Positions 14,875 through 30,891 of a stretch of DNA of 38,268 nt are shown piece after piece. Each line of letters opens with the position of its first letter. Position 1 is the first letter of the stretch. The stretch spans positions 1-38,268 of the forward strand of contig PNMC01000008.1 of assembly GCA_013823365.1 (NCBI GenBank), read 5' to 3'. The position numbers and the translations under genes are program-made. This DNA is from Parvibaculum sp. (lineage in GTDB: Bacteria > Pseudomonadota > Alphaproteobacteria > Parvibaculales > Parvibaculaceae). A model generated the notes under the pieces. That model had not been told where the DNA came from. It saw nothing but the letters and a program-made list of their open reading frames with translations, and ran no database searches.

Positions 14875-14939
14875 CTAGATTCCTTCCCGGAACCAGCCGC
14901 ACCGGTCCTTGTCGGCTGGATGTTCAAGGGAGGTCAGGA

Positions 14940-15359: not shown

Positions 15360-15500
15360 CTAGTTGCGGACGGGCATGCCCGGTTCGCAGCGCTTGCGCC
15401 ATTCGGAGAGGAGGGCCACAAGCAAGTGTCTGAGTTCGTGATCGCTGAGGCTTTCGACGGCTTCCGACAGGTCCGCCGTGCGGTCGTCAACGGCGCTCAT
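15360..15500 (-). CDS. hypothetical 46-residue protein
   Basis: A short, acidic-to-mixed helical protein (MSAVDDRTADLSEAVESLSD, then HELRHLLVALLSEWRKRC). ATG at 15500 is preferred because GGGAG lies 6 bases upstream; an ATG at 15533 would add 11 residues with a weaker site. A predicted amphipathic helix covers ELRHLLVALLSEWRKR. I recognise no family. The stop is 9 bases from the convergent Rap1a-like gene. It could still be a chance frame, as its length is near the noise limit. Confidence 0.45.
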   Translation of the reverse strand: MSAVDDRTADLSEAVESLSDHELRHLLVALLSEWRKRCEPGMPVRN

Positions 15501-15533
15501 ACCGCTCTCCCGGAGGTTGCATTCATGGTTCAT

Positions 15534-15877
15534 GACCCGGCCCTCGATTGAGACGGTGCGTATCACCGCCAGAGACCACTCGACCTTGCAGGCAAAAGGC
15601 TGAGCCTTGAAGTGGAAAACTGTATCGATTGGTAAACGCCAAGGCGGCGGAAAACCGCCAAATAAAAGCGGAGCGGCGCTACGCACCGGGAAGCACTGAT
15701 TCGCCTGTGTGAGCCGAGGTTCAAAAAACCGGCCCTGCGACGCAGTCAAAACCAAGGAGAAAGCGGCTTTATTGTTATAGAGTTCTTTAAAGTCCGAAGG
15801 GCTAGACTTGCGCCGGGGAGAAGTGGAAAGGCAAGCGCCGCGGGGCTTTTGCGATGCTATCCGGAGGAGGGAACAAG
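15534..15877. other. 344-base gap upstream of the response regulator
   Basis: No convincing gene. It contains a small GGCGG-aaaa-CCGCC hairpin (15646-15659) and an AT-rich patch (15769-15793, TTATTGTTATAG then TTCTTTAAAG) unlike its surroundings, which probably includes the promoter of the response regulator. GGAGGAGGG just before 15878 is that gene's ribosome-binding site. Confidence 0.5.
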
Positions 15878-16654
15878 ATGGCGATTGCGAGCGAACATAA
15901 CGGGGCAACTTCCACGAGCGGTGCGCATGCGGCGTCACTTCTGCTTGTGGATGACGATCCTGACATTCGGGAAGAACTCTCGGCCTATCTCACCGCCAAT
16001 GGCATGAAAGTGGCGGCGGCCGGCGATGCCGACAGCGCGCTCAAGGCCTTTTCCGAGGGAAGCTTCGATCTCGTCATTCTCGATCTGCTGCTCGGCCGCG
16101 ACAACGGCTTCGACATCTTGCGCGAGATTCGCCAGACCCATACGACGCCCTGCATCATGGTGACGGGCCAGGGCGAGCCGACCGACAAGGTCGTCGGGCT
16201 CGAACTCGGCGCGGACGACTATGTGGTGAAGCCCGTCAATATGCGCGAGCTCGTGGCGCGCATCCGGGCCCTGTTGCGGCGGAGTGGCCATTCGGGCGGC
16301 TCCGGCGGCCGGAATGGCCGCCACGAGGCGGATGAACGGGAAGATGCGGGCACGCGCTGGAAGTTCGACCCGCACCGGCGCCGCCTTTCCGCGCCGGACG
16401 GTGAGCCCGTTCCGCTGACCACGGCGGAGTGCGACCTGCTGATCGAGCTCGTCGCGCATGAAGGCAATCCGCAGACGCGCGAGGAGCTTTGCCGCCGTGT
16501 TTTCAACCGGCAGTGGCAACCCTATGACCGCAGCCTCGACAGCATTGTCGTGAAACTGCGGCGCAAGCTCGAGCCCAATCCCGATCATCCGATGGTGATC
16601 AAGACCATTCGCGGCAAAGGCTATCTCTTCACGGGATTTCCGAGCGGGGAGTAA
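15878..16654 (+). CDS. OmpR-family response regulator
   Basis: A 258-residue two-component regulator. The receiver domain holds the acidic pair at D25-D27, phospho-acceptor D69 (VILDLLL), T96 and K118 (YVVKPVN). A Gly/Ser/Arg-rich linker near residues 130-155 leads to a winged-helix DNA-binding domain (LTTAECDLLIELVAH, REELCRRVFNRQW, YDRSLDSIVVKLRRKLEPNP, IKTIRGKGYLF). The ATG at 15878 has GGAGGAGGG upstream. It converges with a histidine kinase gene 9 bases away; that kinase, at the end of the Tad operon, is its probable partner, and Tad pilus promoters are plausible targets (inference). Confidence 0.93.
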   Translation: MAIASEHNGATSTSGAHAASLLLVDDDPDIREELSAYLTANGMKVAAAGDADSALKAFSEGSFDLVILDLLLGRDNGFDILREIRQTHTTPCIMVTGQGEPTDKVVGLELGADDYVVKPVNMRELVARIRALLRRSGHSGGSGGRNGRHEADEREDAGTRWKFDPHRRRLSAPDGEPVPLTTAECDLLIELVAHEGNPQTREELCRRVFNRQWQPYDRSLDSIVVKLRRKLEPNPDHPMVIKTIRGKGYLFTGFPSGE

Positions 16655-16663
16655 GCACCTGCT

Positions 16664-18784
16664 CTAGCGGGGGAGATAGACGGCGACATAGCCGCCATGT
16701 GCGTGATTGCCCGGCTCGATGCGCCCGCCGCTTTCGCGGAGGATCGTGTCGCAGATGGCAAGGCCGAGCCCCGTGCCCTGCTCCGCCGATTTGGTGGTGA
16801 AGAAGGGTTCGAGCACGCGGTCGAGAATTTCAGGCCGGAAGCCGGGTCCGCTGTCTTCGACGCGGATAACGGCCATGCCTTCTTCCTCAGACGCGGGCGT
16901 CGCGACGATCCGGACGAGGGCCTCTCCCCGCTCGCGCGGCGTGCCCATTCCCGAGATCGCATCGGCGGCGTTCTGCAAAAGATTGACGATCACCTGTTCG
17001 AGCTGCAGCCGGTCCGCCTGGACGGTCAGGCCCTGCGCAATCTCTCTTTCGAGGCGGACGCCCGCGCGCAAAAGGACATGGTTCATGATCGCCTCGACGC
17101 CGTCGATCAGATCGCCGAGGTCTACCGGCTCGATGTCGCCCGCGCTCTTGCGGCCGAAGCGGCGCATCCTGTCGATCACGTCGCTCGCACGGTCCACCTG
17201 GGCGAGGATGCGCGCCACCTTGGCGGCGATGGCGTCCGCATCGAATTGCGGGGCGGAAAGAATGAATTCGAGATTTTGCACGGCGAGCGAAATCGTGTTG
17301 AGCGGCTGACGGAGCTCATGGGCGATGCTCGCCGACATCTGGCCGAGCGCCGCCATCTTGGCCGTCTGCGCCACCTGCGCCTGTTCTTCGCGCAGCAACA
17401 ATGCCTGACGCAGAAGCAGGGTGAACCTGTCGGCGAAATCGAGATCGGCGGGAGCAAAGCCATCGCGCCTTGAGGCACAGAGGAGATAGGCGCTGCCGCC
17501 CTGCAGCGGCAGGGAAAGGGCCGCGAGATGGCGACCCTCAAGCGCGAAGGCGCGAAGGAGCCGTGCACCATCGTCGTCCGAGCCGCTGAACAGATGGGTT
17601 GCACCTTGCCCGACACAGGAGGAAAGGAATGCGAGGGCATCGTCTGCGGCCCGCGTGACCTCGCGCCTTGCCGGCACCAGGTAGCGTGGCGTGCCATCGA
17701 GCCCGCGCTCGATCACACATGCCTCGCCGCCGCCAAGGCAATCGGCGATGAGGGCGACGAGTTCGGCGAGCCTCTCTCCCGACGCATGCCGGGCGAGGAG
17801 AAGGCGAAGCCCTTGCAGCATGGCTTCGGCTTCACGGCGCTGCCGCTCTTCCCGCAGCCTCGAATCCTTCACCTGCAGCAGCATGGACGCCGTCTCGCTT
17901 GCGGCGGATTTTCCCGTTTCTGCCGGAACGATGCTGAATGTGCCGAGCCAGCGGCTCTTGTCCCCATGCCTGCCGCGCGCAGCGGAAACATAGAGCACTT
18001 CGCCCGGACGAAGCGCTCTGGCCAATGCATCGCCAGGCTGGACGCGCATATGGCGGATGCGGCTTCGCTCCTCAAGGCGATGAAGCAGACTGTGGCCGCT
18101 CGCGCCGATGCGTAAGGCGCCGAGCTTCATTCCCTCCAGAGCGCTCGCAACGTCATTGCGCCGGCCTGGAACATGACGGCAGTGAAGGATCGCATCGTCC
18201 GAGGCTTCCCACGCAATATCGGCGCCGAGATCGAGCCAGGTGCGCGTCGTTTCGAGCGCTTCGCCTGCATGGCGGCGGCCGAGTGCCTGCGCCTTGAGCG
18301 TCCTGATCCTCGATGCGGCGGCCGCGCCGGCATCTGCCATGGCGCGGGCGAGATGCACTGCCTCCGACTCGGCGGCCTCCAGAAGGACTGCCATACGCGT
18401 GCCGGTTTCACGGCCGATCGCTTCGTCGGACAGGAGACCGCGCAGCGTGGCGCGGGTTGTAACGAGCCCCGGCTTCGACTGGGCGGCATCGGCGAACCAG
18501 GCGAGAAAGGCCGGGCCCTCTTCAACCGTCAGGCCGCCTTGCGCCGATTGCCAAAGTACGAGCGGGCGCCCGCCAGGCGACAGGGCGATTTCGCAGATGG
18601 CCGCGCGCATGGCGACGGAGGACAGGAAAATTTGCGAGGCGCGATCGAGCGCCGTCCGAAGCGCATCGTCCGTATCGGCCTCGAGCAGCGACAAGGCGAT
18701 GGCCGCAAAGGCATCGAGCAGGGGCGTATCGCCGCCTTCCTCGCCCTGCCAGCCGAGGCTTTGCGATGCGTGCGGCTCGGCCAT
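16664..18784 (-). CDS. cytoplasmic sensor histidine kinase linked to the Tad operon
   Basis: A 706-residue kinase without transmembrane segments. The first ~440 residues are sensory and probably include two GAF-like regions (LLEADTDDALRTALDRASQIF, and LAELVALIADCLGGGEACVIERG). DHp: MAALGQMSASIAHELRQPLN with phospho-acceptor His489. Catalytic domain: N-box QVIVNLLQNAADAI, G1 VEDSGPGF, F-box EPFFTTK, G2 GTGLGLAI. The ATG lies 2 bases after the tadE stop, so it is translationally coupled as the last gene of the pilus operon. It faces the OmpR-type regulator at 16654. A soluble kinase bound to pilus genes suggests an intracellular cue controls piliation. Confidence 0.92.
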   Translation of the reverse strand: MAEPHASQSLGWQGEEGGDTPLLDAFAAIALSLLEADTDDALRTALDRASQIFLSSVAMRAAICEIALSPGGRPLVLWQSAQGGLTVEEGPAFLAWFADAAQSKPGLVTTRATLRGLLSDEAIGRETGTRMAVLLEAAESEAVHLARAMADAGAAAASRIRTLKAQALGRRHAGEALETTRTWLDLGADIAWEASDDAILHCRHVPGRRNDVASALEGMKLGALRIGASGHSLLHRLEERSRIRHMRVQPGDALARALRPGEVLYVSAARGRHGDKSRWLGTFSIVPAETGKSAASETASMLLQVKDSRLREERQRREAEAMLQGLRLLLARHASGERLAELVALIADCLGGGEACVIERGLDGTPRYLVPARREVTRAADDALAFLSSCVGQGATHLFSGSDDDGARLLRAFALEGRHLAALSLPLQGGSAYLLCASRRDGFAPADLDFADRFTLLLRQALLLREEQAQVAQTAKMAALGQMSASIAHELRQPLNTISLAVQNLEFILSAPQFDADAIAAKVARILAQVDRASDVIDRMRRFGRKSAGDIEPVDLGDLIDGVEAIMNHVLLRAGVRLEREIAQGLTVQADRLQLEQVIVNLLQNAADAISGMGTPRERGEALVRIVATPASEEEGMAVIRVEDSGPGFRPEILDRVLEPFFTTKSAEQGTGLGLAICDTILRESGGRIEPGNHAHGGYVAVYLPR

Positions 18785-18786
18785 GC

Positions 18787-19290
18787 TCAGCCGCCCGGAT
18801 CGGCGACGACAAAAGTCGTGCTCACGCGGATCGTTTCCGGCGGCGCGGGAACGAAGGGCAGGAAGGAGAAGCGGCCGCCCGTATCGTAGTCGATGGCGAT
18901 ATCGCCAGCCCGTCCCGCGCCCGTGTCCCGCCAGACCGGATCCAGAACGTTGACATTCTCCCAGCGCAACAGCGGCGAATAGGATTCGACGGCTTCGCGG
19001 ATCGCCGCCTCAGCATAGTCCCTGCGCTGATCATCGCCGAGGCCCATGACCGCTGCGCGCCCGCCTTCCGCCACGGCATAGGAAAGCGCAATGCGCGCGG
19101 CGAAGTGGAAGCCATAGGACATGATGCCGAAAAGAATGGCGAAGAAGACGGCGGCAATGAAAGCGAACTCGATGGCGACCGAGCCCCGCTCATCGCGGAG
19201 AAGGCGCGCGCGCGGGGAGACCCGCCCTTTCGGACGAGCCCCCCGCAGCTTCCATTGCATGCGCCGCGACATCGCGCTTCTCAGCCTCAT
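18787..19290 (-). CDS. tadE: TadE-like pseudopilin
   Basis: A 167-residue minor pilin-like protein. After a basic N-terminus, DERGSVAIEFAFIAAVFFAILFGIMSYG is the TadE signature: a prepilin-type G-(S) site with Glu at +5 and a hydrophobic helix, followed by a periplasmic domain. Its ATG overlaps the flp stop (ATGA), so translation is coupled. Cleavage would need a prepilin peptidase, which is not in this window. Internal ATGs at 19272 and 19260 are alternatives. The kinase gene follows 2 bases after its stop. Confidence 0.9.
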   Translation of the reverse strand: MRLRSAMSRRMQWKLRGARPKGRVSPRARLLRDERGSVAIEFAFIAAVFFAILFGIMSYGFHFAARIALSYAVAEGGRAAVMGLGDDQRRDYAEAAIREAVESYSPLLRWENVNVLDPVWRDTGAGRAGDIAIDYDTGGRFSFLPFVPAPPETIRVSTTFVVADPGG

Positions 19291-19487
19291 TCAGGGACCG
19301 CAGTGGACAGCCCTTCATTGACGCCCTCGAATACCGACTGGAGGCTTCCGCCGATGCCGCCCGGCCCGACGAATTCCCACAAGCCGATCGCGATACCCGC
19401 AGCAAGAAGACCATACTCCACGGCCGAGATACCGCTCTCGTCCTTCGCAAAACGGCGCATGAACGCCGCAAGTTTCGACTCAGACAT
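19287..19487 (-). CDS. flp: Flp/Fap-type major pilin
   Basis: A 66-residue Flp prepilin. A charged leader (MSESKLAAFMRRFAKDESG) ends at the cleavage Gly, followed by ISAVEYGLLAAGIAIGLW, the conserved hydrophobic segment with the GxxxxEY motif. The ATG at 19487 is supported by GGAG 7 bases upstream; TTG at 19505 and ATG at 19499 have poor sites. In most Tad loci flp is first in the operon; here it is ninth, behind a strong intergenic hairpin that may raise its mRNA level. It is the only Flp gene seen. Confidence 0.92.
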   Translation of the reverse strand: MSESKLAAFMRRFAKDESGISAVEYGLLAAGIAIGLWEFVGPGGIGGSLQSVFEGVNEGLSTAVPE

Positions 19488-19563
19488 CACTTTCTCCATC
19501 TTCAAAGCCGTTTCCGGCTGTTTACGAACCCCTGGCGAGATTCGCCTCCCCTGGCCTCTTGAT

Positions 19564-19597
19564 CCCGCAATGCCCGAAACTTACCGGGCGTTGCGGG
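19564..19597. promoter_or_regulatory. intra-operon hairpin upstream of flp
   Basis: CCCGCAATGCCCG (19564-19576) and CGGGCGTTGCGGG (19585-19597) form a 13-bp stem with one mismatch and an 8-base loop, 77 bases before the flp ATG. No T run follows on the minus strand, so it is not a classical terminator. It could be an mRNA processing or stability element. Confidence 0.65.
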
Positions 19598-19618
19598 GTA
19601 TGCGCGACGCTCCGCTTG

Positions 19619-19855
19619 TCAGCGGTTCGTCGCCGATCCCGTTTCCATCGGTTTGCCGATGTTATCGAGATAATTCTCATAGATCCTGTCCGCCTCTTCC
19701 GCCTGCATGGGCGGCGTTTTTCCGTCCGCGGCGTATTGCGCATCGAGCACGGCGCGGGCGCGGGACTCGACAATGCCCTCATCCGGCGACTCGCAAGCGG
19801 CGAGCATCAACAGTGGAAGCAGGGCCAGCACCGGCGCCGGCTTGAAAGGCTTCAT
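19619..19855 (-). CDS. small lipoprotein of the Tad operon
   Basis: A 78-residue predicted lipoprotein. Signal peptide MKPFKPAPVLALLPLLMLAAC gives lipid Cys21 followed by Glu-Ser. The ~57-residue mature part (ESRARAVLDAQYAADG, EEADRIYENYLDNIGKPM) is polar and probably helical. Its ATG overlaps the tadD stop (TGATG), with GGAGG 7 bases upstream inside tadD. It sits where some Tad loci carry small accessory proteins between tadD and pilin genes. It is too small and unlike CpaD to be that protein. A role as an outer-membrane pilotin or secretin helper is a guess from position. Confidence 0.78.
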   Translation of the reverse strand: MKPFKPAPVLALLPLLMLAACESPDEGIVESRARAVLDAQYAADGKTPPMQAEEADRIYENYLDNIGKPMETGSATNR

Positions 19856-20562
19856 CACATTTCCTCCCTTGCATCGTCATGGGCGGCATGGCGCGCAACC
19901 CAGTCGACAGCAAATTTCTGCACTTCCGCGCGCTCGTCCGCCGTCTGGATACCGGCAAGAAGACGGCGCGCCTCGCTTTCCTTGCCGGAAAGCAGCAGCG
20001 CGATCACGAGATTGTTGCGGATCGACACGGAGGCGGGATCGAGTTCCTGCGCCTGACGAAGGTTGAACTCCGCCTCGGCGATATTCGTGCCGAGCGACAG
20101 CTGCGCGTAACCGAGATTGTTCAGGAATTCCGGGCTCGACGGGCGGAGCGCGACAGCCTGCCGGAAATGAGAGACGGCGGCGGCCCAATTGCCCTCAGCC
20201 GCGCTCGTGCGGCCGAGACCGCTATGCCCTTCCGGCGCCAGAGGTCCGCGCGTCAGCTCGGAGAAGGCGCTGGCGGCGGCATCATATTGTCCGGTGCCGA
20301 GAAGCGCTTCGCCATAAAGCTGCTGGAAGAAGGGCGTCTTGCGCTCGTTCACCGCATATTGGTCGAGATAGGCAAGCGCCGCGCGATACCGCCCCTGCTC
20401 GAGCAGTCCGTTCACGACGTTGAGATAGAGATGCGATTTCGACTGCGCATCGAGCGTGCCGACATCGCTCGCGCGCGGTGCAAGGGACGACACCGGCTCG
20501 AAGCCATATTCCGCGCAGCCGCCGAGCAACATGCAGCAGAGAAAGATGCCGACGGGCTTCAT
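19855..20562 (-). CDS. tadD: TadD, TPR lipoprotein
   Basis: A 235-residue lipoprotein with lipobox LGGC (Cys16). The rest is tetratricopeptide repeats: YLNVVNGLLEQGRYRAALAYLDQ, LYGEALLGTGQYDAAASAF, GLGRTSAAEGNWAAAVSHFRQAVALRPSSPEFLNNLGYAQ and a last unit to DPASVSIRNNLVIALLLSGK. TadD is the periplasmic or outer-membrane assembly factor of Tad pili. Its ATG overlaps the tadC stop (ATGA), so it is translated in step with the platform genes. Confidence 0.9.
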   Translation of the reverse strand: MKPVGIFLCCMLLGGCAEYGFEPVSSLAPRASDVGTLDAQSKSHLYLNVVNGLLEQGRYRAALAYLDQYAVNERKTPFFQQLYGEALLGTGQYDAAASAFSELTRGPLAPEGHSGLGRTSAAEGNWAAAVSHFRQAVALRPSSPEFLNNLGYAQLSLGTNIAEAEFNLRQAQELDPASVSIRNNLVIALLLSGKESEARRLLAGIQTADERAEVQKFAVDWVARHAAHDDAREEM

Positions 20563-21500
20563 GATCCGCCTCCCCGATTTCCCAGCCGTTCGCCAGCGGT
20601 CTGCAACGCACCCTGAAGGTTAACGACCGCCGGGCCTGCTAGTATGACAAGCAAGACGGGCATAAAAAAGAGAATCATGACCAGCGTGAGATGCGGCGCC
20701 TTGCGGCCCACCTGCTCGCGCACCGTCGCCATGCGCTTGTCCGTCAGGTCGGCGGCAAAGCGGCGAAGCGTCGTGCCGAGTTCGCCGCCCTGATAAAGCG
20801 CCTGCGAGATCGTGGCGGCGAGGTCCTTGCCCTCGTCGATGCCAAGGCGCTGGCCCAATCTCTCAAGAGCGGCGTCATAGGGCATGCCCGCATCGATATC
20901 GGCGATGTGGCGGCGCAGCACGGCGCCGGTGACGGGAGAGGTGTCGCCGGTGACGCTCGCGACATAGCGCATGCACTGGTCGATACTGACGCCCGCATCG
21001 AGCGCCATGAGCATGATATCGAGAACGGGCGGCAGTTCGCGGCGGATCGCATTTGCACGGCGATCCACATAGATTTTCAGTCCGATCACCGCGTAGCGAT
21101 AGAAGAGGTAGCCGAAGATCAAGGCAATCAGGACATCCTGCGGGCGCAGGCCGGTGCCGCCATAGCGGAAGGCAAGGAAGGCGAAGACCACGAAGCCGGC
21201 GAGCAGCGCGCGCAGCGCGACGAAGACATAGAGCGAAGAGGTCTGGAAAAACCCAGCCTGAAGCACCAGCGCCCGCAATTCGCGATTGATGCGCGCACCT
21301 TCTATCCGCCGGCCGAGCCGCTCGAGAAAGCCGAGAGTCTTGTCGAGCAGCGTGCCCTGATCGCCGTCCGAAAGGAACAGGCGCGACAGGCGCGATGTCA
21401 CTTCCTGCCGCCGCACGAAGGACAGCACGGATGCGGCCATGACCGCGCCGCCCGTTGCGAGCGCGGTAAGTGCCACCATCCATGTCAGCGTCTCGATCAA
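20559..21500 (-). CDS. tadC: TadC, inner-membrane platform protein
   Basis: A 313-residue type II secretion F-like protein. Hydrophobic segments lie near residues 5-28, 90-112, 120-140 and 280-300. The T2SSF core runs ELPPVLDIMLMALDAGVSIDQCMRYVA to ISQALYQGGELGTTLRRFAADLTDKRM. The start is TTG at 21500, supported by GGAGGAAGG upstream; the first ATG (21479) lacks a ribosome-binding site. With TadB it forms the platform that couples the CpaF motor to pilin. Confidence 0.92.
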   Translation of the reverse strand: MIETLTWMVALTALATGGAVMAASVLSFVRRQEVTSRLSRLFLSDGDQGTLLDKTLGFLERLGRRIEGARINRELRALVLQAGFFQTSSLYVFVALRALLAGFVVFAFLAFRYGGTGLRPQDVLIALIFGYLFYRYAVIGLKIYVDRRANAIRRELPPVLDIMLMALDAGVSIDQCMRYVASVTGDTSPVTGAVLRRHIADIDAGMPYDAALERLGQRLGIDEGKDLAATISQALYQGGELGTTLRRFAADLTDKRMATVREQVGRKAPHLTLVMILFFMPVLLVILAGPAVVNLQGALQTAGERLGNRGGGS

Positions 21501-21519
21501 AGCCGTCCTTCCTCCAAGT

Positions 21520-22446
21520 CTAGTAGCCGGTCGAGCCGACCACCTTGCGCATCAGGAATGCGCCGATGAGCTGCGAGACTGCGCAGTAGACAAGCAGGCT
21601 CCGCCCGGCCGGCTCGTCGATGAACCAGCGCATGTAGTCCGGGCTCTGCGACATGACGACGGCAGAGACCAGAATCGGCAAGATGCCGAGCACCCAGGCG
21701 CTTGCCCTGATCTGCGAGGTGTTCACCCGCACCTCTCTCATCAAGGCAGCGCGGCGGCGCATATTCTCGATCAGATTGGCGAGGATGGCGGTGAGCGCGC
21801 CGCCGAAGCGCAGATTGGTTTCGATCGCTGCACCGAAAAGGCGGAGTTCGTAGATATCCACCTCGCGGGCGAGCTGGTTCACGCTTTCGCCGACACTCGC
21901 GCCATTCGCTATGCGCCGCATCGTCGGCTGGAAGAACTCCACGACGACGGGCGGCGAGGATTGCGTTGCCCGCGCGAGCGCCACCGACAGGCTGTTGCCG
22001 ACCACGAGGAGTTGCCGCACGCGGTCGAAATAGCCGAGCATTGCATCGGAGAGCGCATCCATCCGCTTGCGGGCTCTGTAATCGACAATGGCGACCGCGA
22101 CCAGAACGACGCTCATCAGGAAAAGGGCGGCGACAAAGATGCCGAAGACGAAGGCCGAGGCCAGCGTGAGCGAGAGCAGAAAGATGAGAATGGCGAAGAA
22201 GCGGTCTTCCGAGAGTTCGAGTCCTGCCTGATAGAGGCGGGTGCGAGCCGATTGGGGGAGCAGGCCGCGCAGATCGGGCCAGTGCCTCAGAGAGAGGCGC
22301 GGACGGCCGGCCTGCGTTGCCGGCATGATGAGGTGCTGCAGGCGATCCTGAACATCACGCTGCCTGCGTCCCTGCCAGAGCAGCAGGAAGGCGCAGAGGG
22401 CCGTCGCGAGACAGGCCAGCGAGAGAATCAGAAGCGAAAACTGCAT
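21520..22446 (-). CDS. tadB: TadB, inner-membrane platform protein
   Basis: A 308-residue T2SSF-family protein. An N-terminal membrane segment (SLLILSLACLATALCAFLLL) is followed by paired segments near 85-120 and C-terminal ones near 245-300. The core has QLLVVGNSLSVALARA, IANGASVGESVNQLAREVDIYELRLFGAAI and FGGALTAILANLIENMRRR. ATG with GGGAGGGAGGAA upstream. It follows cpaF by 15 bases. Confidence 0.92.
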   Translation of the reverse strand: MQFSLLILSLACLATALCAFLLLWQGRRQRDVQDRLQHLIMPATQAGRPRLSLRHWPDLRGLLPQSARTRLYQAGLELSEDRFFAILIFLLSLTLASAFVFGIFVAALFLMSVVLVAVAIVDYRARKRMDALSDAMLGYFDRVRQLLVVGNSLSVALARATQSSPPVVVEFFQPTMRRIANGASVGESVNQLAREVDIYELRLFGAAIETNLRFGGALTAILANLIENMRRRAALMREVRVNTSQIRASAWVLGILPILVSAVVMSQSPDYMRWFIDEPAGRSLLVYCAVSQLIGAFLMRKVVGSTGY

Positions 22447-22461
22447 CGTGTTCCTCCCTCC

Positions 22462-23688
22462 CTAAAGGCTGCGCCGTTCCTCGGCCTCGCCGGCGGCGAA
22501 GACCTCCCGAAGGGCATAGGTTGCACCCTCCATGCCCACCACCTCGCAGACCGAGAGGATTTTCCGCTTCCCGTCCGGCTGACGCGCGAGATGAACCACG
22601 ATATCGATGGCGCCGGAGATGAAGCGCCGCACCGCCTGAAGATCGGCGGAGAAGCCATGCAGACCGATCAGCATTTCGAGGCGCTCCAGCGCATCGCGCG
22701 GGCCGTTCGCATGGAGCGTCGCCATGGAGCCGTCATGGCCGGTGCCCATGGCCTGCAGCATTTCGATCGCCTCGCTCGACCGCACCTCGCCCAGAATGAT
22801 GCGATCGGGCCGCATGCGAAGGACGTTGCGGATGAGGTCGCGGGCGGTCACGTCGCCTGCGCCATCGGGCGAGGCGGGCCGTGTCTCTAGGCGGACGACA
22901 TGGGCTTGCTGAAGGCGAAGCTCGGCCGCGTCCTCGATCGTCACCAGGCGCTCCTTCGCGCCGATGTAGGAACTCAGCACGTTGAGCAGCGTCGTCTTGC
23001 CGGAGCCTGTGCCGCCGCAGATCAGCATGTTCTTCTTGCCGCGCACCGCCGATGAGAGATAGCGCAGCATGTCGGACGTCATGGTGCCGTTGCGCACCAT
23101 GTCGTCGCCGGCGAGCGGAATCTGCTTGAACTTGCGGATGGAAAGGATGGGCCCGTCGAGCGCAACCGGCGGAATGATGACGTTCACGCGCGAGCCATCC
23201 GGCAGGCGGCCATCGACATAAGGCGTGCTCTCGTCCACGCGGCGGCCGATGGGGCTGACGATGCGCTGGATCACGTTCATCAGATGGGCCGTGTCGCGGA
23301 AGCGGGTCTGGACGGCTTCGAGTTCGCCGCCGCGCTCGACATAGATGGCGGCCGGCCCGTTGACGACCACATCGTCGACGGACGGATCCTTGAGCAGGGG
23401 CTCGAGGGGACCGAAACCGACGATCTCGTTCTGCACATCCTCGATGAGTTGTGCCCGCTCGCGCATGTTGAGCGCGATGCCGCGCGAGAGAAGCACGACC
23501 GAGATGGCACGCGCAATCTCGTCCTGCAGGGCGGCGAGAGGCATGGTCTCGCCCTCGACATCCTGCCGGTCCAGATATTCGAGCGTGAGGTCGAAGACGC
23601 GGAACTTCATTTCCTGATAGCTGTCGGAAATGCCGATATCCGAGACGGCGTTCTGCGATCCGACCATATAGGGCTGCATGTTCCTCAT
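22462..23688 (-). CDS. cpaF: CpaF/TadA pilus-assembly ATPase
   Basis: A 408-residue secretion ATPase of the Tad subfamily. The N1/N2 region ends in [22 protein letters not shown]; the Walker [10 protein letters not shown] starts near residue 225, the Asp box is [11 protein letters not shown], Walker B is RIILGEVR and the His box is [13 protein letters not shown]. It powers pilus extension and, in Tad systems, retraction. Its ATG overlaps the cpaE stop (ATGA). It is slightly shorter than many CpaF proteins because the N-terminal extension is brief. Confidence 0.95.
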
Positions 23689-24881
23689 GAGAGCACCGCC
23701 CTGATCCTGCGCGTCAGTTCCTTCAGGCCCTGGGGCGCGCGTGCTTCATCTTCGATGTAGGGCACGAGATTGAGTGCCTGGAGGTGCCGGGACAATTCAC
23801 GCGCATAAGGCGTGCTCGCGGCAAGGGCCAGCGGCTCGCCGCGATTCACGGCTTCGGCGAGGTCGCGCCACCGCACCGGCAGTTCGAGCGCGCGCGCCGC
23901 GCCCACGGCATCGCGAATGCCTGCGGGGTTCGGGGCCATACCTGCTGCGAACTCGTGGACGACAAGGATCGGCTCGTCGCGGCCGCCGCGCACCGTGCGC
24001 ACGAGCCGCAGGAGCTCGGCCGCCGCCTTGATGGAGGTGAAGCGCTGGTTGCAGGGGAGGAAGAGCAACGCCCCTTCTTCCGGGAGGCTCAGAATCTCTT
24101 CCTGGCGCGAAAAGGGGCCGCAGGAGACGATCACCACGTCATAAAGCGAACGGCAGATTTCGAGCAGCGCGCGCAGGTCGTGAATGTCGACAACCCAGCC
24201 CTCGGCATCGCCATGAAGGGCGAGAGGAAGCACATAGAGACCGGAGCGCGGGCAGCGCGCCAATGCCGAATCGAGCAACGCACGATCTAGGCGCGTCATT
24301 TCCTTCACGGCGTCCTTGACCCGGAAGGTCATATCGAGGCCGAGCGCGATCGCCGCGTTGCTGGCGGGAAGGCCGAGATCGACCAGAAGGACGCCTTCCT
24401 GCGGCCGGGCCGCGGCGATCATCGTTGCCATGTTGATCGCGAGATCGTCGTCACCGTCGCTCGATGCCGGGCTCAGCGCCATGACGAGATTCGAAAGCGA
24501 GGCTCCGCGGAAACGGCTTTCGGCGATGCGCTGGGAAACGGCGTTGCGGAAATCGTCGGGTGCCGCATCGCGGTCGATGAAATCCTGCGCGCCGGCGCGC
24601 ATGGCGGTGAGAATGAGCTGTGCGCCCATCTCGTTGCCGATCACGATCAGGGGAAGGCCGGAAAACCAGCCGCGCAGGGTCGACAGCCGTTCAAAGGCGG
24701 TGCGCGCACCCATATGCACTTCCGCATCGGCAAGCACGCATTCCGGCCGGAACTGCTCGGCGATCTCGACCACATTGCCTGCGGCGGGGTCTGCAACCAT
24801 CACGGTGGCATCGCTCTCCAGCGCGCGTTTCACGCGGGCTGCGAGCGTGCTGTCACCTGAGACGAGGAGGACGCGGTGCAT
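23685..24881 (-). CDS. cpaE: CpaE/TadZ-like localisation protein with degenerate P-loop
   Basis: A 398-residue protein. Residues 1-125 are an atypical receiver domain (VLLVSGDSTLAARVKRAL, LPLIVIGNEM, AMRAGAQDFIDRDA). The rest is a MinD/ParA-like ATPase fold with VLLVDLGLPASNAAIALGL and IVSCGPFSRQEEIL. At the P-loop, where CpaE usually has a GGVGATTxA-type sequence, this protein reads ALSPASSDGDDDLAINMATM, with no Lys or Gly-rich loop. It may localise the pilus without ATP cycling. It starts 4 bases after cpaC. No cpaD gene lies between them, as found in many alphaproteobacteria. Confidence 0.88.
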   Translation of the reverse strand: MHRVLLVSGDSTLAARVKRALESDATVMVADPAAGNVVEIAEQFRPECVLADAEVHMGARTAFERLSTLRGWFSGLPLIVIGNEMGAQLILTAMRAGAQDFIDRDAAPDDFRNAVSQRIAESRFRGASLSNLVMALSPASSDGDDDLAINMATMIAAARPQEGVLLVDLGLPASNAAIALGLDMTFRVKDAVKEMTRLDRALLDSALARCPRSGLYVLPLALHGDAEGWVVDIHDLRALLEICRSLYDVVIVSCGPFSRQEEILSLPEEGALLFLPCNQRFTSIKAAAELLRLVRTVRGGRDEPILVVHEFAAGMAPNPAGIRDAVGAARALELPVRWRDLAEAVNRGEPLALAASTPYARELSRHLQALNLVPYIEDEARAPQGLKELTRRIRAVLS

Positions 24882-24885
24882 GCCG

Positions 24886-26295
24886 TTACCTCATCAGACC
24901 GTGACGGACAATGTGGTCTTCCAGCGTGTCCACATTGAGCAGGTTCTTGCCGAGATTGGTGTCGTAGCGCTGGCCTTCGCCCGGGAGCTTCGGCACCTGC
25001 CCCGGCTCCATCGGCGAGACGAGGCGCGGCGTCGCCACGATGATGAGTTCCTGCCGCTCGCGCGAATTCTGCGTCCGCTTGAAGAAGGAACCAATGATCG
25101 GCAGCTCGCCAATGCCGGGAATCCGGTCCTCGATATTTCCCGAGGCGCTGTACATGAGGCCGGCGAGCACGAAGCTCTGGCCGTCGCCGAGTTCGATCGT
25201 GGTGCGTGTCGAGCGGGTGCGGAGCGCGGGAACGCGGAAGCCCTGTACGACAAGCGCATTGGTGTAGTCGAGCTCGCTCACCTCCGGATTGACCTTGAGG
25301 ATGATGCGTTCGTCGTCGAGGACGGTTGCGGCAACGCCGAGCTGAACGCCGAAGCGCTTGTATTCGATGGTAACGGTGCCGTTGCCCGAGCCCGATTGGG
25401 GAACGGGGATCGGCACCTCGCCGCCTGCGAGAAACTCCGCATCCTCACCGCTGCGGACGAGCAGGGTCGGCTCGGCCAGAAGCTGCGCCAGATTGGCATT
25501 GCTCAAGGCGCTGATGACGCCGAGGAGATCGCTGCCCGGCCAGGCGAGGAAGAGATTGAAGGCCTGGCTCAGCGGCAGGCTCGTATCGGGATCGAGACCG
25601 GTGCCCGGCGTATAGCCGAAGCTCGTCGAGGAATTGGGGCCGATGGCCGCGAACTGGAAATTATTGTCGAGGCTCTGGAAGTTGAGGCCGAGCGCCTTGA
25701 GCGTGCTGGTCGAGACGGCGGCGAAACGCACTTCCACGGCGACCATACGGCGGTCGGCGACCTGCATCGTGTCTTTCACATCCGCGCCGATATGGGAGCG
25801 CGCGAGATTGACGGCCTTCTGCCTGTCTTCGAGGCTCTGGACTTCGCCCTGCAGCATGACGCCTTGACCGGTTTCCACCGCTCTTACGCCCTTGAGCGAG
25901 GGTTCGCGCGCGAGTTCGTTGCGGAAGCCGGTGAGATCCGCACCGACGACAACACGCCAGGACTGGCTGACGCCATTGGTGAGCCAGACCGAGAGATCGG
26001 AGGTGCCGCCCTTCTGGCCGAGCAGGCGCAATTCGCGCGAGGAGACGACCGTCACATCGACGACCGAGGGATTGGACACGGCAATGCGGTCGACCGGCGC
26101 ATCAAGCCTCAAAACGCGCTGACCGCCCGAGGGAATATCGAGCGTGCGGCTTTCGGCCGGCGCCGCGGGCAGCAGCAAAGAAAGGCAGGAGGCCAGAAGG
26201 AAAGCAATGCCGAACGGCCGGGCGCGCCGCCGCGCCCTGCCGATAAACGGCGCCTTCCTTGTTATTGTCCCTGCCATGTCGCCCGCCTCGCCCAT
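24886..26295 (-). CDS. cpaC: CpaC/RcpA outer-membrane secretin
   Basis: A 469-residue secretin. A basic N-terminus and hydrophobic segment (GIAFLLASCLSLLLPAAPA) form a signal peptide cleaved near residue 47. A pilus-secretin N domain follows (RVLRLDAPVDRIAVSNPSVV), then a BON-like region (GVMLQGEVQSLEDRQKAVNLA). The secretin core has EPTLLVRSGEDAEFLAGGE and the end VLAGLMYS, IPGIGELPIIGSFFKR, ELIIVATPRLV. ATG at 26295 is chosen for its GGGGAGAGG site; a TTG 30 bases upstream overlaps the cpaB stop and ATG 26277 is weaker. Confidence 0.93.
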   Translation of the reverse strand: MGEAGDMAGTITRKAPFIGRARRRARPFGIAFLLASCLSLLLPAAPAESRTLDIPSGGQRVLRLDAPVDRIAVSNPSVVDVTVVSSRELRLLGQKGGTSDLSVWLTNGVSQSWRVVVGADLTGFRNELAREPSLKGVRAVETGQGVMLQGEVQSLEDRQKAVNLARSHIGADVKDTMQVADRRMVAVEVRFAAVSTSTLKALGLNFQSLDNNFQFAAIGPNSSTSFGYTPGTGLDPDTSLPLSQAFNLFLAWPGSDLLGVISALSNANLAQLLAEPTLLVRSGEDAEFLAGGEVPIPVPQSGSGNGTVTIEYKRFGVQLGVAATVLDDERIILKVNPEVSELDYTNALVVQGFRVPALRTRSTRTTIELGDGQSFVLAGLMYSASGNIEDRIPGIGELPIIGSFFKRTQNSRERQELIIVATPRLVSPMEPGQVPKLPGEGQRYDTNLGKNLLNVDTLEDHIVRHGLMR

Positions 26296-26321
26296 ATCCC
26301 TCTCCCCGCTCCCAGCCTTGC

Positions 26322-27206
26322 TCAACGCGGTGTGACCACCGTCGTCTGGTTCGCCCCCGAATAGATCGTGACCCGGTGGCCCGAAGGCGCGCCGGCCGCC
26401 TGTTCTTCGCCGGGCCTTTCGGAAACCGGCGCCGCGCCCGGCTGCAGATCGTCCAGCGCCACGATCTCGGCGGGCGCCACTTCCCGGTCGCCCGGATTGC
26501 GGATGGCGAGCGTCACCTGCCCGAGCCTTCCCGCGAGCGCGAGCCGTGCAAGGGCGGCAGGCGGGGCCGCCAGCGTCACCGTGCGCGCCGACCCTTGAGG
26601 TCCGCCATCGCGCGGCGAGAGCTCGGGGCCCACCGCCAGCACCTGCATGTCCTGCAGGAGCAGCGCGCTCTTGCTCTGGTCTTCCCGCTGCTGGCCCATG
26701 CCCTGCTGGCCGTAAACCGCGCCGGGCAAGGTCACGAAAACGTCCACCCGGTCGCCCGCCTGAAGGAAACCGCCGACAATGTCTTCTTCCGCGACGCGGA
26801 TGGCGAAGGCCCGTTCGCCTTCGGGCACGAGCGCGGCGATGCCGGCGGAGGCCGGATCGGCGCTCAGATTGCCGTTGAAAATGATCTGCGAGGCGCGGAT
26901 ATCGGAGGTCGCCACGCGGCCTGTGATGAGCGACCGGTCGGAGAAAGAACCGGGAGGTGCTGCACCTTCCATGCGCCGGACGGCGATGTCCTCTGCCAGA
27001 ATCACCCGCCCGCGGGGCACATCCCGTACCGCCACGAGCACATCCGACATCGGTCTGTCTTCGGAAATCGCGGTTGCGGGCGGGGACTGCGCTTCGTCAC
27101 GCGACGAAAGATTGAGCCAGATCAGGACCAGTGCCACGGCGATAAGGCCAAGGCCCAGAACGACCAGCGCTCCGGGATTCTGCTGAATCCGCTGCGCGAA
27201 ACTCAT
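26322..27206 (-). CDS. cpaB: CpaB/RcpC pilus assembly protein
   Basis: A 294-residue inner-membrane-anchored periplasmic protein. One N-terminal membrane helix (LVVLGLGLIAVALVLIWL) precedes an SAF domain (DVLVAVRDVPRGRVILAEDI) and the RcpC/CpaB domain (FAIRVAEEDIVGGFLQAGDRVDVFVTLP). It is the first gene of the Tad operon, with GGGGAGGAGGGAAA upstream of the ATG and a long divergent intergenic region behind it. Confidence 0.92.
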   Translation of the reverse strand: MSFAQRIQQNPGALVVLGLGLIAVALVLIWLNLSSRDEAQSPPATAISEDRPMSDVLVAVRDVPRGRVILAEDIAVRRMEGAAPPGSFSDRSLITGRVATSDIRASQIIFNGNLSADPASAGIAALVPEGERAFAIRVAEEDIVGGFLQAGDRVDVFVTLPGAVYGQQGMGQQREDQSKSALLLQDMQVLAVGPELSPRDGGPQGSARTVTLAAPPAALARLALAGRLGQVTLAIRNPGDREVAPAEIVALDDLQPGAAPVSERPGEEQAAGAPSGHRVTIYSGANQTTVVTPR

Positions 27207-27823
27207 TCTCTTTCCCTCCTCCCCAGACCGGCTCTACCTGCCTGCCCGTTCTGGCGCGTCCAGTCCCGTGTGCGCCACTCGCCTCTCATCCGCCGGATCT
27301 CTCCCATCCGAAGGATCATTCTACCGACCAAAACAGTCAACAATTTGCTAAAAGGAGTGTCCCATCTGTGCCCTTTTACGGAAACTTCGATTTTTACTTG
27401 AATTCGGACCAATGAAGAGCGCGGAGCTTCACTCCACATTCTATATTCGCCGGATCGATAGTTCAACATTGTTGACCTATTCTGCCCGGAAATCGCCGCA
27501 AGAGAGGGAAACGGGGGCGCCATTGTCTTAGCTGCTCCGCAAGAGAATACGAGATACGCAACCAGACTGAGGCAGGACGCTCCGTGAGTTCCCCAAATTC
27601 CCAGCCAGCTCGGGAAAACTAGGGCACGGAAGCGGCTGTGTGTGCGAGATATCGAACAGAAATGTGTCCCTTTTGCGCCCGGCAAGTGGCGACAATTCAC
27701 ACATTGCTCGACAAACGGGTACCGATTACTCCCGTGTTACTCAAATTAAGTACAGTACTCGTCTTTATTGATGCCCTCCTCGCTGTACCATCAGCCTAGG
27801 GAATATCCGGTGAGGGAGGGAGC
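27207..27823. promoter_or_regulatory. 617-base divergent regulatory region between the Tad operon and tpsB-like gene
   Basis: No gene is supported. Palindromes are TCAACA-T-TGTTGA (27463-27475) and AGTAC-A-GTACT (27749-27759). GTCAACAAT occurs on the plus strand at 27336-27344 and again inside the first palindrome on the minus strand. TGTGCCCTTTT (27367-27377) and TGTGTCCCTTTT (27663-27674) resemble a site at 30731-30741. The stretch is less GC-rich than its neighbours, as expected for promoters. Regulator identity is unknown; the OmpR-type protein at 15878 is a candidate. Confidence 0.6.
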
Positions 27824-29500
27824 ATGTTCCGTAGCAAGAGCATTTTTCTGGCGGCCGTTTCGACGCTTGCCCTGACATGCCATCCGGCACTCGCGCAGAG
27901 CGTGGGTCCGCAAAACCTGCCTTCACCGGGAACGGTTCTCGCGCCGCCGCCGCCCGCGCCCGATCTCGAACGGCGTGAAACGCCAAGGCTGCGCGAGGAG
28001 CTCGGCCTGCCGGACGGCACGGAGCGCGTGCTCGACTTCAAGATATCGAATGTGCGCATCGCGGGCGCGAACGCCGTCGATCCGCAGCTGCTGGCCGTTC
28101 CGTTCGCCGACCTTCTCAACCGCCCGGTCACGGCAGGGGAACTGCGCGCGGCACTCGACCGCGTCAATGCGATCTATGCGGAAGAGGGCTATGCGCTCGG
28201 CCGCGCCTATATTCCCGTACAGGTCGTCCAGGGCGGCACGCTGATCGTGCGGGTCGTCGAAGGCTTTATCGGTGAAATCCGGATCACGGCGGAAGATGCC
28301 GCCGTGCGGCGCATGGTGGAAGAGTTCAGCCGCCGGATCGTCGCGGAGAAGCCGCTGCGGCAGGCGACGCTCGAGCGCTATCTTCTGCTTATCAGCGACA
28401 TTCCGGGCGTCACGCTGGACGGGCGGCTTCAGTCCATGGACATCTATTCGGGCGCCGCCGTGCTGGCGCTCGACGTGACCAGCCAGAAGCTCGCGGCGTC
28501 GACCGCCGTCGACAACCGGGCCAATCTCGATTCCGCGCCGTTCCAGGCTTACCTGACTGGATTCGTCAACAATATCTTCGGCTATGGCGACCAGTTCTCG
28601 CTGACGGTGCTTGCCACGCCGGAGATCGACAAGCAGCAATATTTCCGCGGGGCCTTCTCGACCTTTATCGGTACGGACGGGCTCAGGGCATCCGGCGGGT
28701 TTGCCTATGCGAGCTCGCAGCAGCCCGATCTTCCCGCCGGTATCGAACTCGTCAGCACCAGCCGGCAGGCGGATTTCCTGCTCAGCTACCCGATCATCCG
28801 CGCGACGCGGGAAACGCTGAATGCATTTTTCGGCTTCTATTACACGGATGCGGAAAATTCGCTGAACGGCTTCACCTTCAGCAAGGATGCCATCCGCGCT
28901 GCACATATCGGGGCGAGCTACGCCTCGCAGCTCGGCGAGGCCGCCACGATGGCAGCGCATATGCGCGTCACGCAGGGCTTCTCGCTCTTCGGCGCGGGGC
29001 CCGAAAACATGGCTCACTCCCGCCTCGGGGCGACGCCCAATTTCACCAAGCTGCAGGCCGGTGCAACCCTCAACTATGCGGCGACGGAGCGGCTTCTGCT
29101 GACGTTGCGCACGGAAGGCCAGTACAGTCCGGATTCGCTCTACAGCTCGGAAGAGATCGCCTTTGGCGGCACCCGCTTCGCGCGCGGCTACAACAATTCG
29201 GAAATCAGCGGCGACAGCGGCCTCGGCGCATCGATCCAGGCGAGCTACCGCTTCGAGAGCGAGATGTTCGGCGGCTGGTCGATCACGCCCTACACTTTCC
29301 TCGATCATGCCTATGTCTGGAACACGCCGGTCGACCAGCAGGGCGACGCGCGGCTCTTCTCGACGGGTATCGGCGTGACGCTTTCGAACCGGCGCTGGCT
29401 GTCGCTCGGTCTCGAGCTCGACAAGCCCATCAACCGGACGCCGCTTTCGCAGAACGACAAGGATCCGCGCCTCTTCGTCTCCTTCGAAATCCGCTTCTGA
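27824..29500 (+). CDS. TpsB/FhaC-family outer-membrane transporter
   Basis: A 558-residue two-partner-secretion type transporter. The signal peptide ends HPALA-Q (residue 24). A Pro-rich linker (PPPPAPDLER) leads to two POTRA regions (FKISNVRIAGANAVDPQLL; LIVRVVEGFIGEIRI and RRIVAEKPLRQATLERYLLLISDIPGV), then a 16-strand barrel with GGTRFARGYNNSEISGDSG, the FhaC L6 motif with Ala-Arg-Gly-Tyr in place of VRGY. It ends in Phe. No TpsA exoprotein with a TPS domain is adjacent; the neighbours are the Tad operon (divergent) and lipoprotein 3 (convergent). The substrate is unknown. Confidence 0.9.
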   Translation: MFRSKSIFLAAVSTLALTCHPALAQSVGPQNLPSPGTVLAPPPPAPDLERRETPRLREELGLPDGTERVLDFKISNVRIAGANAVDPQLLAVPFADLLNRPVTAGELRAALDRVNAIYAEEGYALGRAYIPVQVVQGGTLIVRVVEGFIGEIRITAEDAAVRRMVEEFSRRIVAEKPLRQATLERYLLLISDIPGVTLDGRLQSMDIYSGAAVLALDVTSQKLAASTAVDNRANLDSAPFQAYLTGFVNNIFGYGDQFSLTVLATPEIDKQQYFRGAFSTFIGTDGLRASGGFAYASSQQPDLPAGIELVSTSRQADFLLSYPIIRATRETLNAFFGFYYTDAENSLNGFTFSKDAIRAAHIGASYASQLGEAATMAAHMRVTQGFSLFGAGPENMAHSRLGATPNFTKLQAGATLNYAATERLLLTLRTEGQYSPDSLYSSEEIAFGGTRFARGYNNSEISGDSGLGASIQASYRFESEMFGGWSITPYTFLDHAYVWNTPVDQQGDARLFSTGIGVTLSNRRWLSLGLELDKPINRTPLSQNDKDPRLFVSFEIRF

Positions 29501-29575: not shown

Positions 29576-30643
29576 TCAACGCCCGCCGAGAAGACCGCCA
29601 AGGAGAGGGAGGCTGCCGAGCGAGCCCGTGACCGGGCCGAGGGCATCGCCCAGAACAGGGACGGAGGACAAGGCGCCGCCCGTCCCACCGTCGCCCGAGG
29701 CGGCAGCGGGCGTGCCCAGCACATTGCCCACCACGGGAACCGAAGAGAGAGCGCCATGCGCGGGCGCTGCGATACCACCCACCACGTTGTTTCCCCCCGT
29801 CAGAAGCGCATTCAGCCCCGGCAATGCCGGTCCGAGGGCGCCGTCCCCCGCCAGCGGCGAAGGCTGACTGCCCGCCACCACCCCGAGAAGTCCCGTCACG
29901 GCCGAGCCGACCGGTGCAAGCGGCGGCTCCCCTGCGGGTATGAGATTGCCGAGCAGGCCGCCATTGCCGCCGCCCAGCGGATTTTCCGTTCCGACAAGAT
30001 TGCCGACGAGATCGATTCCGAGAAGATCGTGGACGAGACCGCCAGCGCCGGTGACGCCGAGGGCGGGCACCTGGGAAAGGCCCTCGGTCACGGTGGAGAG
30101 CGGCAGGGCCGCGGCAACGGGCTGGGCGACCGGCGCGAGCGCGCCCTGACCGTCCAGCAGCGCGCCCAGAAGCCCGTCATTACCGCCTGCCAGCGTCGCG
30201 CCGAGCACACCGCTCGTGTCGATCGCGCCGCCGAGAATGTCGCCGCCCGTCAGATCCGCAAGGAGGCCGCCATCGCCGAGAAGCCCGAGGCCCGTCACGT
30301 TCGCATCCGGATCGCCGGCGAGCGCACCCGCGGCGGAGGGGACGAGGCCCGGCCCGCCTTGCGAGCCGAGAAGCGCGGTGACGAGATTGCCCTCGCCAAG
30401 CGCGGCATCGAGGAGCCCGCCCACGGGATCTGCGCCAAGCACATTCTCGAGCGCGCCGCCGCCGCCGGTGACGCCGAGACCGCCGCTGCCCGTTCCCGCG
30501 CCGCCCGGTCCACCCGGAGAGGCAATGCTGCTGACAAATGTACTGCTGCGGCCGCCGCCCACTTCCGAGGACATGGCGATCTTGTCCGTGCACCCGGCAA
30601 GGCCGAGGAAAACCGCCGACAAAACCAGTATTCGTCCCGACAT
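29576..30643 (-). CDS. Gly/Leu-rich repeat lipoprotein 3
   Basis: A 355-residue predicted lipoprotein, paralogous to those at 9178 and 10515. The ATG at 30643 follows GGAGGGAG; lipobox LAGC (Cys18) with Thr at +2. Family motifs: GLGVTGGGGALENVLGADPV, GLGLLGDGGLLADLTGGDIL and ALGVTGAGGLVHDLLGIDLV, so three copies rather than two, with PLAPVGSAVTGLLGVV and repeated LSSVPV(V/L)G(N/D)(V/A)LG near the C-terminus. It is nearly uncharged. It converges on the TpsB-like gene and is divergent from the TadG-like gene, so it lies within the pilus region. Function unknown; a surface role is inferred. Confidence 0.8.
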   Translation of the reverse strand: MSGRILVLSAVFLGLAGCTDKIAMSSEVGGGRSSTFVSSIASPGGPGGAGTGSGGLGVTGGGGALENVLGADPVGGLLDAALGEGNLVTALLGSQGGPGLVPSAAGALAGDPDANVTGLGLLGDGGLLADLTGGDILGGAIDTSGVLGATLAGGNDGLLGALLDGQGALAPVAQPVAAALPLSTVTEGLSQVPALGVTGAGGLVHDLLGIDLVGNLVGTENPLGGGNGGLLGNLIPAGEPPLAPVGSAVTGLLGVVAGSQPSPLAGDGALGPALPGLNALLTGGNNVVGGIAAPAHGALSSVPVVGNVLGTPAAASGDGGTGGALSSVPVLGDALGPVTGSLGSLPLLGGLLGGR

Positions 30644-30891
30644 TCGCTCCCTCCACTCCGTCCTGCGCGGCCCTTCAGGCCTCCTCCGTCCTCCTTTTCT
30701 AGACGAGCACCGGGCAAGCGGGTGTAGGCTTGTGTCCCTTTGTGTGCGCGAGTTTGAGAGATCGTGTGTATTGGCGTTCATGGTGCGTGTGCGGAAGATT
30801 TTCGGTTAATCATCCGCTAAGATGTGAGCGGCTTAGATGCGATGGCGGCCGGAGGAGAGCCGCCCGGCAGCGACCGGCCTTGGAGGAGGGC

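Follow-up and report, generated by a model that had tools for sequence, protein, structure and literature searches.

The Tad-2 gene row and its two-component genes

The window analysed here is a stretch of 38,268 nucleotides from Parvibaculum sp. (PNMC01000008.1), which makes up contig C8 of a draft genome (88.9% complete) that totals 3,355,601 bases over 482 contigs. On its minus strand, from 27206 to 16664, lie 11 open reading frames (ORFs), each with zero internal stops, in the order cpaB-cpaC-cpaE-cpaF-tadB-tadC-tadD-lipoprotein-flp-tadE-histidine kinase; we term this Tad (type IVc) pilus locus Tad-2. Pfam identifies RcpC/CpaB, secretin, T2SSE, two T2SSF, TPR, Flp_Fap, TadE, HisKA and HATPase_c among the products. 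The sequence-only reading of this DNA had described a compact Tad gene row closing in a kinase, with flp in ninth place, and this description is borne out: the same order is observed in all 12 kinase-bearing genomes. It had left out the response regulator gene that converges on the kinase (15878-16654) and a conserved ORF of 57 amino acids (aa).

The core set of a Tad system is present: the CpaF/TadA ATPase, the TadB and TadC platform, the secretin, RcpC/CpaB and TadD. The row, all on the minus strand, begins with cpaB/rcpC (26322..27206; PF16976, 1.5e-27; TIGR03177, 9.7e-53, above cut-off) and the secretin gene cpaC/rcpA (24886..26325; PF00263, 3.1e-42; PF13629, 4.6e-20), whose start codon is uncertain, as the starts called in the relatives analysed lie further downstream. 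These are followed by cpaE/tadZ (23685..24881), with a receiver-like N-terminus that matches PF00072 just over the cut-off (3.7e-07) and TadZ_N below it; cpaF/tadA (22462..23688; PF00437, 2.3e-61), with an intact Walker A motif; tadB (21520..22446; PF00482, 4.8e-08); and tadC (20559..21500; PF00482, 8.9e-17). Next is tadD (19855..20562; TPR_19, 1.2e-15), encoding a tetratricopeptide-repeat lipoprotein with a lipobox-like LLGGC in its sequence, which is a possible secretin pilotin. The 79-aa lipoprotein after it (19619..19858) has no match in Pfam or NCBIfam; a hidden Markov model (HMM) that we built for it matches all 12 genus loci as well as the related loci L101-L103, making it a marker of the Tad-2 lineage. 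The flp gene (19287..19487; PF04964, 3.2e-11) encodes a pilin of 66 aa with the cleavage motif G/ISAVEY, its start at the ATG at 19487 being chosen from the sequence and its relatives, and tadE (18787..19290; PF07811, 2.5e-10) a pseudopilin with the motif G/SVAIEF. Thus, both the prepilin and the pseudopilin possess G/XXXXE(Y/F) cleavage sites, and both genes with these motifs lie within the operon in 12/12 genus loci.

Most of the genes are tightly packed, as had been noticed before: nine junctions range from -4 to +19 bp, with overlaps of 4 bp at cpaB/cpaC (where the TTG start is doubtful), cpaE/cpaF, tadC/tadD, tadD/lipoprotein and flp/tadE, and gaps of +4 (cpaC/cpaE), +15 (cpaF/tadB), +19 (tadB/tadC) and +2 bp (tadE/kinase). 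The lipoprotein-flp junction departs from this pattern, with 113 bp up to the first TTG and 131 bp up to the likelier ATG at 19487. The gap is kept in 12/12 genomes, its length being 135 bp in G002 and ranging from 181 to 247 bp in ten others. As this conserved gap of 131-247 bp precedes flp, the gene may have its own promoter, and its transcript may start, or be processed, separately from the upstream genes; accordingly, we list 19488..19618 (minus strand) as a candidate flp promoter region. A GCCG-GAAA-CGGC hairpin precedes the flp ribosome site in 7/12 genomes of the alignment, and one paired flanking change is seen beside it between the window and the others. Scans for promoter-like sites (1 found, 2.1 expected) and terminator-like sites (13 found, 12.3 expected) were at expectation and have no power. 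The single transcript that had been proposed for the whole row is therefore not established. Nor is the translational coupling of the kinase to tadE: the intervening gap is 2 bp in the window but 26-43 bp in 3/12 genomes, for an overall range of 2-43 bp.

The terminal gene (16664..18784, minus strand) encodes a histidine kinase of 706 aa, matched by Pfam HisKA and HATPase_c and modelled with AlphaFold2 (mean predicted local distance difference test, pLDDT, 74; predicted template modelling score 0.35). We divide it into a GAF-like (20-180), a PAS-like (186-290) and a second GAF-like region (336-470), followed by the HisKA (480-549) and HATPase (591-698) domains. The catalytic residues, namely the histidine and the N and G motifs, are invariant in 12/12 sequences. 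In the model, a coiled coil separates two α/β domains from a third, which is followed by the kinase core, and there is no membrane helix; as no transmembrane segment was seen in the protein either, the kinase looks soluble. Comparison with solved kinases by VIA-align gave Z-scores of about 20, the aligned part being mainly the kinase core (residues 481-706). The N-terminal part was modelled with a mean pLDDT of 78, and its top Foldseek match, at a TM-score of 0.26, is DhaR(N), which we take to be a GAF-PAS protein. No Pfam sensor domain scores above the cut-off in the N-terminal rows of any of the 12 kinases; the kinase of a related locus from another family (f41) has a GAF match in the region aligned to the N-terminus of the Tad-2 kinase. 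It is from the N-terminal model, the weak Foldseek matches and this GAF match that the GAF-, PAS- and GAF-like labels derive, and they suggest a GAF/PAS-type sensor. A phytochrome identity finds no clear support: Foldseek lists phytochromes, but with TM-scores of 0.19-0.37.

The convergent gene (15878..16654, plus strand), ending 9 bp from the end of the kinase gene, encodes an OmpR-type response regulator with a receiver (PF00072, 4.1e-29) and an output domain (PF00486, 1.4e-19); its start at 15878, after GGAGGAGGG, is preferred over 15854. By domain content, a two-component set is hence present: a kinase with HisKA and HATPase_c and, adjacent to it, a regulator with receiver and output domains. 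The regulator occurs in exactly the same 12/27 genomes as the kinase, adjoins it in all 12, and is the more conserved of the two (71-96% as against 41-73% identity). We infer that the two proteins pair with each other.

Conservation and lineage of Tad-2

A full-length kinase is encoded in 12/27 genomes of the genus, including the genome of the window; the other 11 copies are 42-73% identical to the one described here. Ten other genomes of the family and 24 of the class have kinase-domain similarity at most, with no full-length kinase, and the sensor part alone matches 12/40 genomes of the order, all of them within the genus. In a collection of named sequences, 10/10 full-length kinase loci are in records of Parvibaculum, Parvibaculaceae, Rhodobiaceae or uncultured Alphaproteobacteria, with P. 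indicum DSM 25305 and P. sedimenti HXT-9 among the named carriers. The neighborhood shows a common order: MetHyd, P450, Rap1a, regulator, kinase, tadE, flp, lipoprotein, tadD, tadC, tadB, cpaF, cpaE, cpaC, cpaB. Nine of the 12 stretches, the window included, display the whole row to cpaB and then the genes for TpsB, X401 and TadG; the remaining three end at a contig edge within the operon, and their visible genes keep the order. Compared with G002, the ratio of non-synonymous to synonymous substitution rates (dN/dS) of the eleven operon genes ranges from 0.050 (cpaF) to 0.181 (kinase), and that of the regulator is 0.040. By gene content, the kinase-regulator pair is inherited only together with the operon.

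The sequence-only reading had noted that the prepilin peptidase gene cpaA and cpaD are absent, and had suggested a genome search for cpaA/tadV. The absence holds at the locus: the cpaA and cpaD HMMs built here have no matches in the window or in 11/11 related Tad-2 stretches. It does not hold genome-wide: contig C15 of the same genome carries a complete-looking classical Tad locus (Tad-1) that includes both genes, together with cpaB, cpaC, cpaE, cpaF, tadB, tadC, flp, two tadE-like genes, a TadG-like gene and a Crp-type regulator. An A24 peptidase was found in all 12 kinase-bearing genomes, exactly one in nine of them, and Tad-1 contains one in all 12. In the regions read around the peptidases of the 11 other genomes, one lies inside a classical Tad locus of the same order in each, this locus being cut by a stretch or contig end in G015 and G004. 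As the sole A24 peptidase found in 9/12 genomes sits in Tad-1, CpaA is probably shared by both loci, maturing the pilins of Tad-1 and Tad-2 alike. No Tad genes were seen around the extra A24 peptidases at L095 and L100 (genomes G004 and G016).

Some further pilus genes were observed in these genomes. G006 carries yet another Tad locus, its third (L098, 6089-15700), which has a cpaA, cpaB-F and tadB/C of its own; in trees it groups with one from another family. A free-standing secretin N-terminal domain protein (T2SS-T3SS_pil_N; L010, 3835-4470, minus strand) adjoins the classical Tad locus, and the 11 other genomes read keep it too. Outside both Tad loci there is a third, solitary Flp pilin gene (G000 C16:22636-22755, plus strand; L013), downstream of genes that we presume to be argJ-like and mutT-like.

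Beyond the genus, we surveyed CpaF in a sample of 289 genomes of the class, 102 of which had a match at 1e-110; eight loci outside the family were read (seven with the Tad row of the top-ranked match, and G120), three genomes of the same family being left aside. The closest CpaF proteins outside the genus in this sample come from three genomes of one other family (f41), at 60% identity, followed by G067 at 52%, with the rest at about 45-55%. The three f41 loci are characterized by the row cpaB-C-E-F-tadB-C-tadD-lipoprotein with kinase and receiver genes alongside, the kinase being on the opposite strand, and have no HMM match for cpaA or cpaD. Our flp HMM gave no match in the related loci L101-L103. 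In G067, the interval from flp to cpaB contains kinase and receiver reading frames of the same strand. Hence, kinase and receiver genes adjoin the Tad genes in all four related loci, which belong to two other families. In trees built from 31 rows of CpaF and 29 of CpaC, Tad-2 joins these four loci with support of 100/99 and 100/100, respectively, apart from Tad-1, although treekit warns of meeting long branches, L104 among them. Judged by reading frames, substitution ratios and trees, the Tad-2 genes are intact, under purifying selection and of a lineage apart from Tad-1. Together these loci form a coherent Tad lineage, found in at least three families, that has neither a prepilin peptidase nor a CpaD of its own and carries genes for a kinase and a receiver next to the Tad genes. 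Two Tad systems per cell relying on one peptidase would present a simple case of shared maturation.

Flanking genes and competing readings

Divergent from cpaB is a gene for a TpsB-type (ShlB/FhaC) outer-membrane transporter (27824..29500, plus strand; PF03865, 7.5e-28; PF08479, 4.6e-14), which adjoins the operon in all nine stretches reaching that far; no TpsA-like gene lies alongside it. Matches to two-partner secretion exoproteins (PF05860) in the same genome are zero, which is uninformative because the controls are equally silent. Next to it are X401 (29576..30781, minus strand), a Gly/Leu-rich lipoprotein-like protein with no match in Pfam or NCBIfam, and a TadG-like protein of uncertain start that overlaps X401 as called (30730..32634, plus strand; PF09977, 4.4e-07; PF13400, 2.3e-05); both are syntenic in 9/9 stretches. 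A weakly similar stretch to X401 lies close to the related locus L101. On the other side, Metal_hydrol, cytochrome P450 and Rap1a-domain genes (12518-15350, plus strand) are found next to the regulator in every stretch that extends to them. The 57-aa ORF (15360..15533, minus strand), between Rap1a and the regulator and divergent from the latter, is probably a real gene: it recurs in 11/11 related stretches with a dN/dS of 0.037. It has no family match above cut-off, and displays a motif around SLSDxELRxLLVALLSEWR.

Alignments point to a candidate element of regulation or promotion, GAAAACTGTA (15615..15624, plus strand), in the space that separates the regulator gene from the 57-aa ORF and upstream of that ORF, and to a similar candidate, GAGTACTGTA (27751..27760, minus strand), ahead of tpsB in the region between it and cpaB. 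The pattern GARWACTGTA occurs exactly at two sites in 38 kb and, with at most one mismatch, at five against 0.98 expected, a number reached in 0/100 shuffles; this count is post hoc, as the element was first noticed in the alignments. Rfam at its gathering threshold gives no matches in 12000-33000.

Taken together, these observations make it fairly probable that Tad-2 is a functional second Tad pilus locus run by its own two-component system. In such a system, the CpaA of Tad-1 would process the Tad-2 pilin and TadE, and TadD with the 79-aa lipoprotein would replace CpaD at the secretin. The cytosolic kinase would sense an internal ligand or redox signal via its GAF/PAS domains and phosphorylate the convergent OmpR-type regulator, which in turn would switch the whole cpaB-to-kinase row, and perhaps also flp, tpsB and its own gene. 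That the pair might control Tad-2 transcription is suggested by analogy to PprAB of Pseudomonas aeruginosa and to a Pectobacterium regulator, which do so at their own loci. Encoded last among the pilus genes, the kinase would rise in level whenever the operon is transcribed, closing a loop of autoregulation that might be activating or act as a brake. Several points weigh against this picture. The partnership of kinase and regulator is based on adjacency and co-inheritance, both of which are common to the whole locus. The kinase is on the opposite strand in the three related f41 loci; hence, its co-transcription is not general. Given the conserved gap, flp is possibly transcribed apart from the cpaB-to-lipoprotein genes. 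The ACTGTA-like element is post hoc, and its loosened pattern is present at just 7/9 tpsB sites, while a blind motif search in the upstream regions of the regulator, cpaB/tpsB and lipoprotein-flp in nine genomes found no pair clearly above shuffles and did not recover this element.

Of the other explanations, the one to which we give some weight, while thinking it unlikely, is that the pilus operon is genuine, with the kinase as a co-transcribed passenger that signals to something unconnected with pili, its targets being perhaps the adjoining regulator and tpsB or genes of lipid metabolism. Synteny extends to P450, Metal_hydrol and Rap1a on the flank, so that inheritance of the neighborhood could explain the linkage, and the kinase sequence has changed more quickly than the others (dN/dS 0.18, identity 41-73%). 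These facts have to be set against the tadE-kinase spacing of 2-43 bp kept in 12/12 genomes, the recurrence of kinase and receiver genes next to Tad genes of this lineage at four loci from two further families, and the two precedents of PprAB and the Pectobacterium system, all of which favor a pilus-linked kinase. A kinase acting on the pilus machinery itself is a different matter: it could phosphorylate the receiver-like domain of CpaE (TadZ) and steer pilus assembly or polar placement, not, or not only, transcription. The N-terminus of CpaE matches Response_reg above the cut-off, and all 10 aligned Tad-2 rows, as well as the four related loci, retain Asp52 as the residue where a phospho-acceptor would lie, the Tad-1 CpaE having Glu. 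The deviant Walker A motif is unrecognisable in the Tad-2 rows, which have an SSDGDDD-like stretch in its place; the Tad-1 copy shows the reverse combination of Walker A motif and Asp. However, the conserved Lys and Thr/Ser of receivers are replaced and the acidic pair is incomplete in Tad-2 CpaE, and a canonical regulator adjoins the kinase in 12/12 genomes; we therefore consider this quite improbable. Its more specific form, in which phosphorylation of CpaE/TadZ would control placement or assembly and the OmpR-type regulator would be a second, transcriptional output, is hardly to be expected either.

We give very little credence to the two readings that would deny Tad-2 a pilus. One makes it, together with TpsB, an apparatus for secretion or adhesin display, consistent with TpsB and X401 adjoining the operon wherever the stretches reach that far (9/9) and with the want of an HMM-detectable flp in L101-L103; Flp and TadE with cleavage motifs inside the operon at 12/12 genus loci argue otherwise. 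The other, already envisaged in the sequence-only reading should a second complete Tad locus exist, makes it a duplicate of the classical Tad system in decay, or a relic of it, silent for want of cpaA and cpaD. Such a locus does exist, with cpaA, cpaD, flp, two tadE and tadG on C15, but no decay accompanies it: the Tad-2 ORFs contain no stops, dN/dS is 0.05-0.18, 12/27 genomes of the genus carry the locus, and its CpaF is 47% identical to the Tad-1 paralogue and falls in a different clade. The absence of CpaD need not matter either, because P. aeruginosa, according to PMC10934763, assembles Flp pili without a CpaD homologue. We reject a relic on the grounds of purifying selection and the separate lineage in the trees.

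Tad-2 and known Tad systems

The pilus locus with its own two-component system that we favor can be set beside several studied ones. The classical Tad/cpa loci (Caulobacter cpa, Agrobacterium ctp and the Tad-1 read here) have the same CpaB, CpaC, CpaE, CpaF, TadB, TadC, Flp and TadE, and share with Tad-2 the order cpaB-C-E-F-tadB-tadC. Tad-2 differs from them in lacking cpaA and cpaD, in having flp in ninth place, and in its extra 79-aa lipoprotein and terminal kinase; from Tad-1 it is further set apart by a CpaF of 47% identity in a separate clade. The flp-rcp-tad locus of P. aeruginosa, with a peptidase of its own (FppA) and the NarL-type regulator PprB, comprises five transcription units, whereas Tad-2 has the kinase last in the operon and a convergent OmpR-type regulator. 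The likeness lies in the locus encoding its own histidine kinase and response regulator and in the lack of a CpaD homologue; according to PMC3510237 the regulatory pair, PprAB, activates flp-rcp-tad. The Pectobacterium flp/tad cluster has, like Tad-2, an adjoining OmpR-type regulator (OmpR/BaeS-type pair ECA0785-ECA0786), but there the two-component pair flanks the cluster, the whole making up five predicted operons, whereas in Tad-2 the kinase is inside the Tad gene row. A mutant of this regulator has lower expression of rcpA, rcpB, tadA and flp (PMC3767616). A second Tad cluster likewise devoid of cpaD, the incomplete flp-2 of Sinorhizobium meliloti on pSymA, contributes to pili (PMC10934763); it lacks the secretin gene cpaC and keeps cpaA, whereas Tad-2 has the secretin and lacks cpaA.

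In Parvibaculum, no Tad pilus was found described in the open-licence PubMed Central (PMC) articles by a search confined to that genus together with Tad pili, nor was any connection drawn there between a Tad pilus and surface-dependent growth of strain DS-1. P. lavamentivorans DS-1 requires a solid surface for growth at high surfactant, and its authors presume a protective biofilm (PMC3368416); Tad-2 is a candidate for explaining this behavior. Tad pili whose locus encodes a two-component system are already known, so that we regard Tad-2 as interesting but not surprising; what is new in it is the kinase as terminal pilus gene, the peptidase-less lineage and the possible link to the surface-dependent growth of DS-1 in surfactant.

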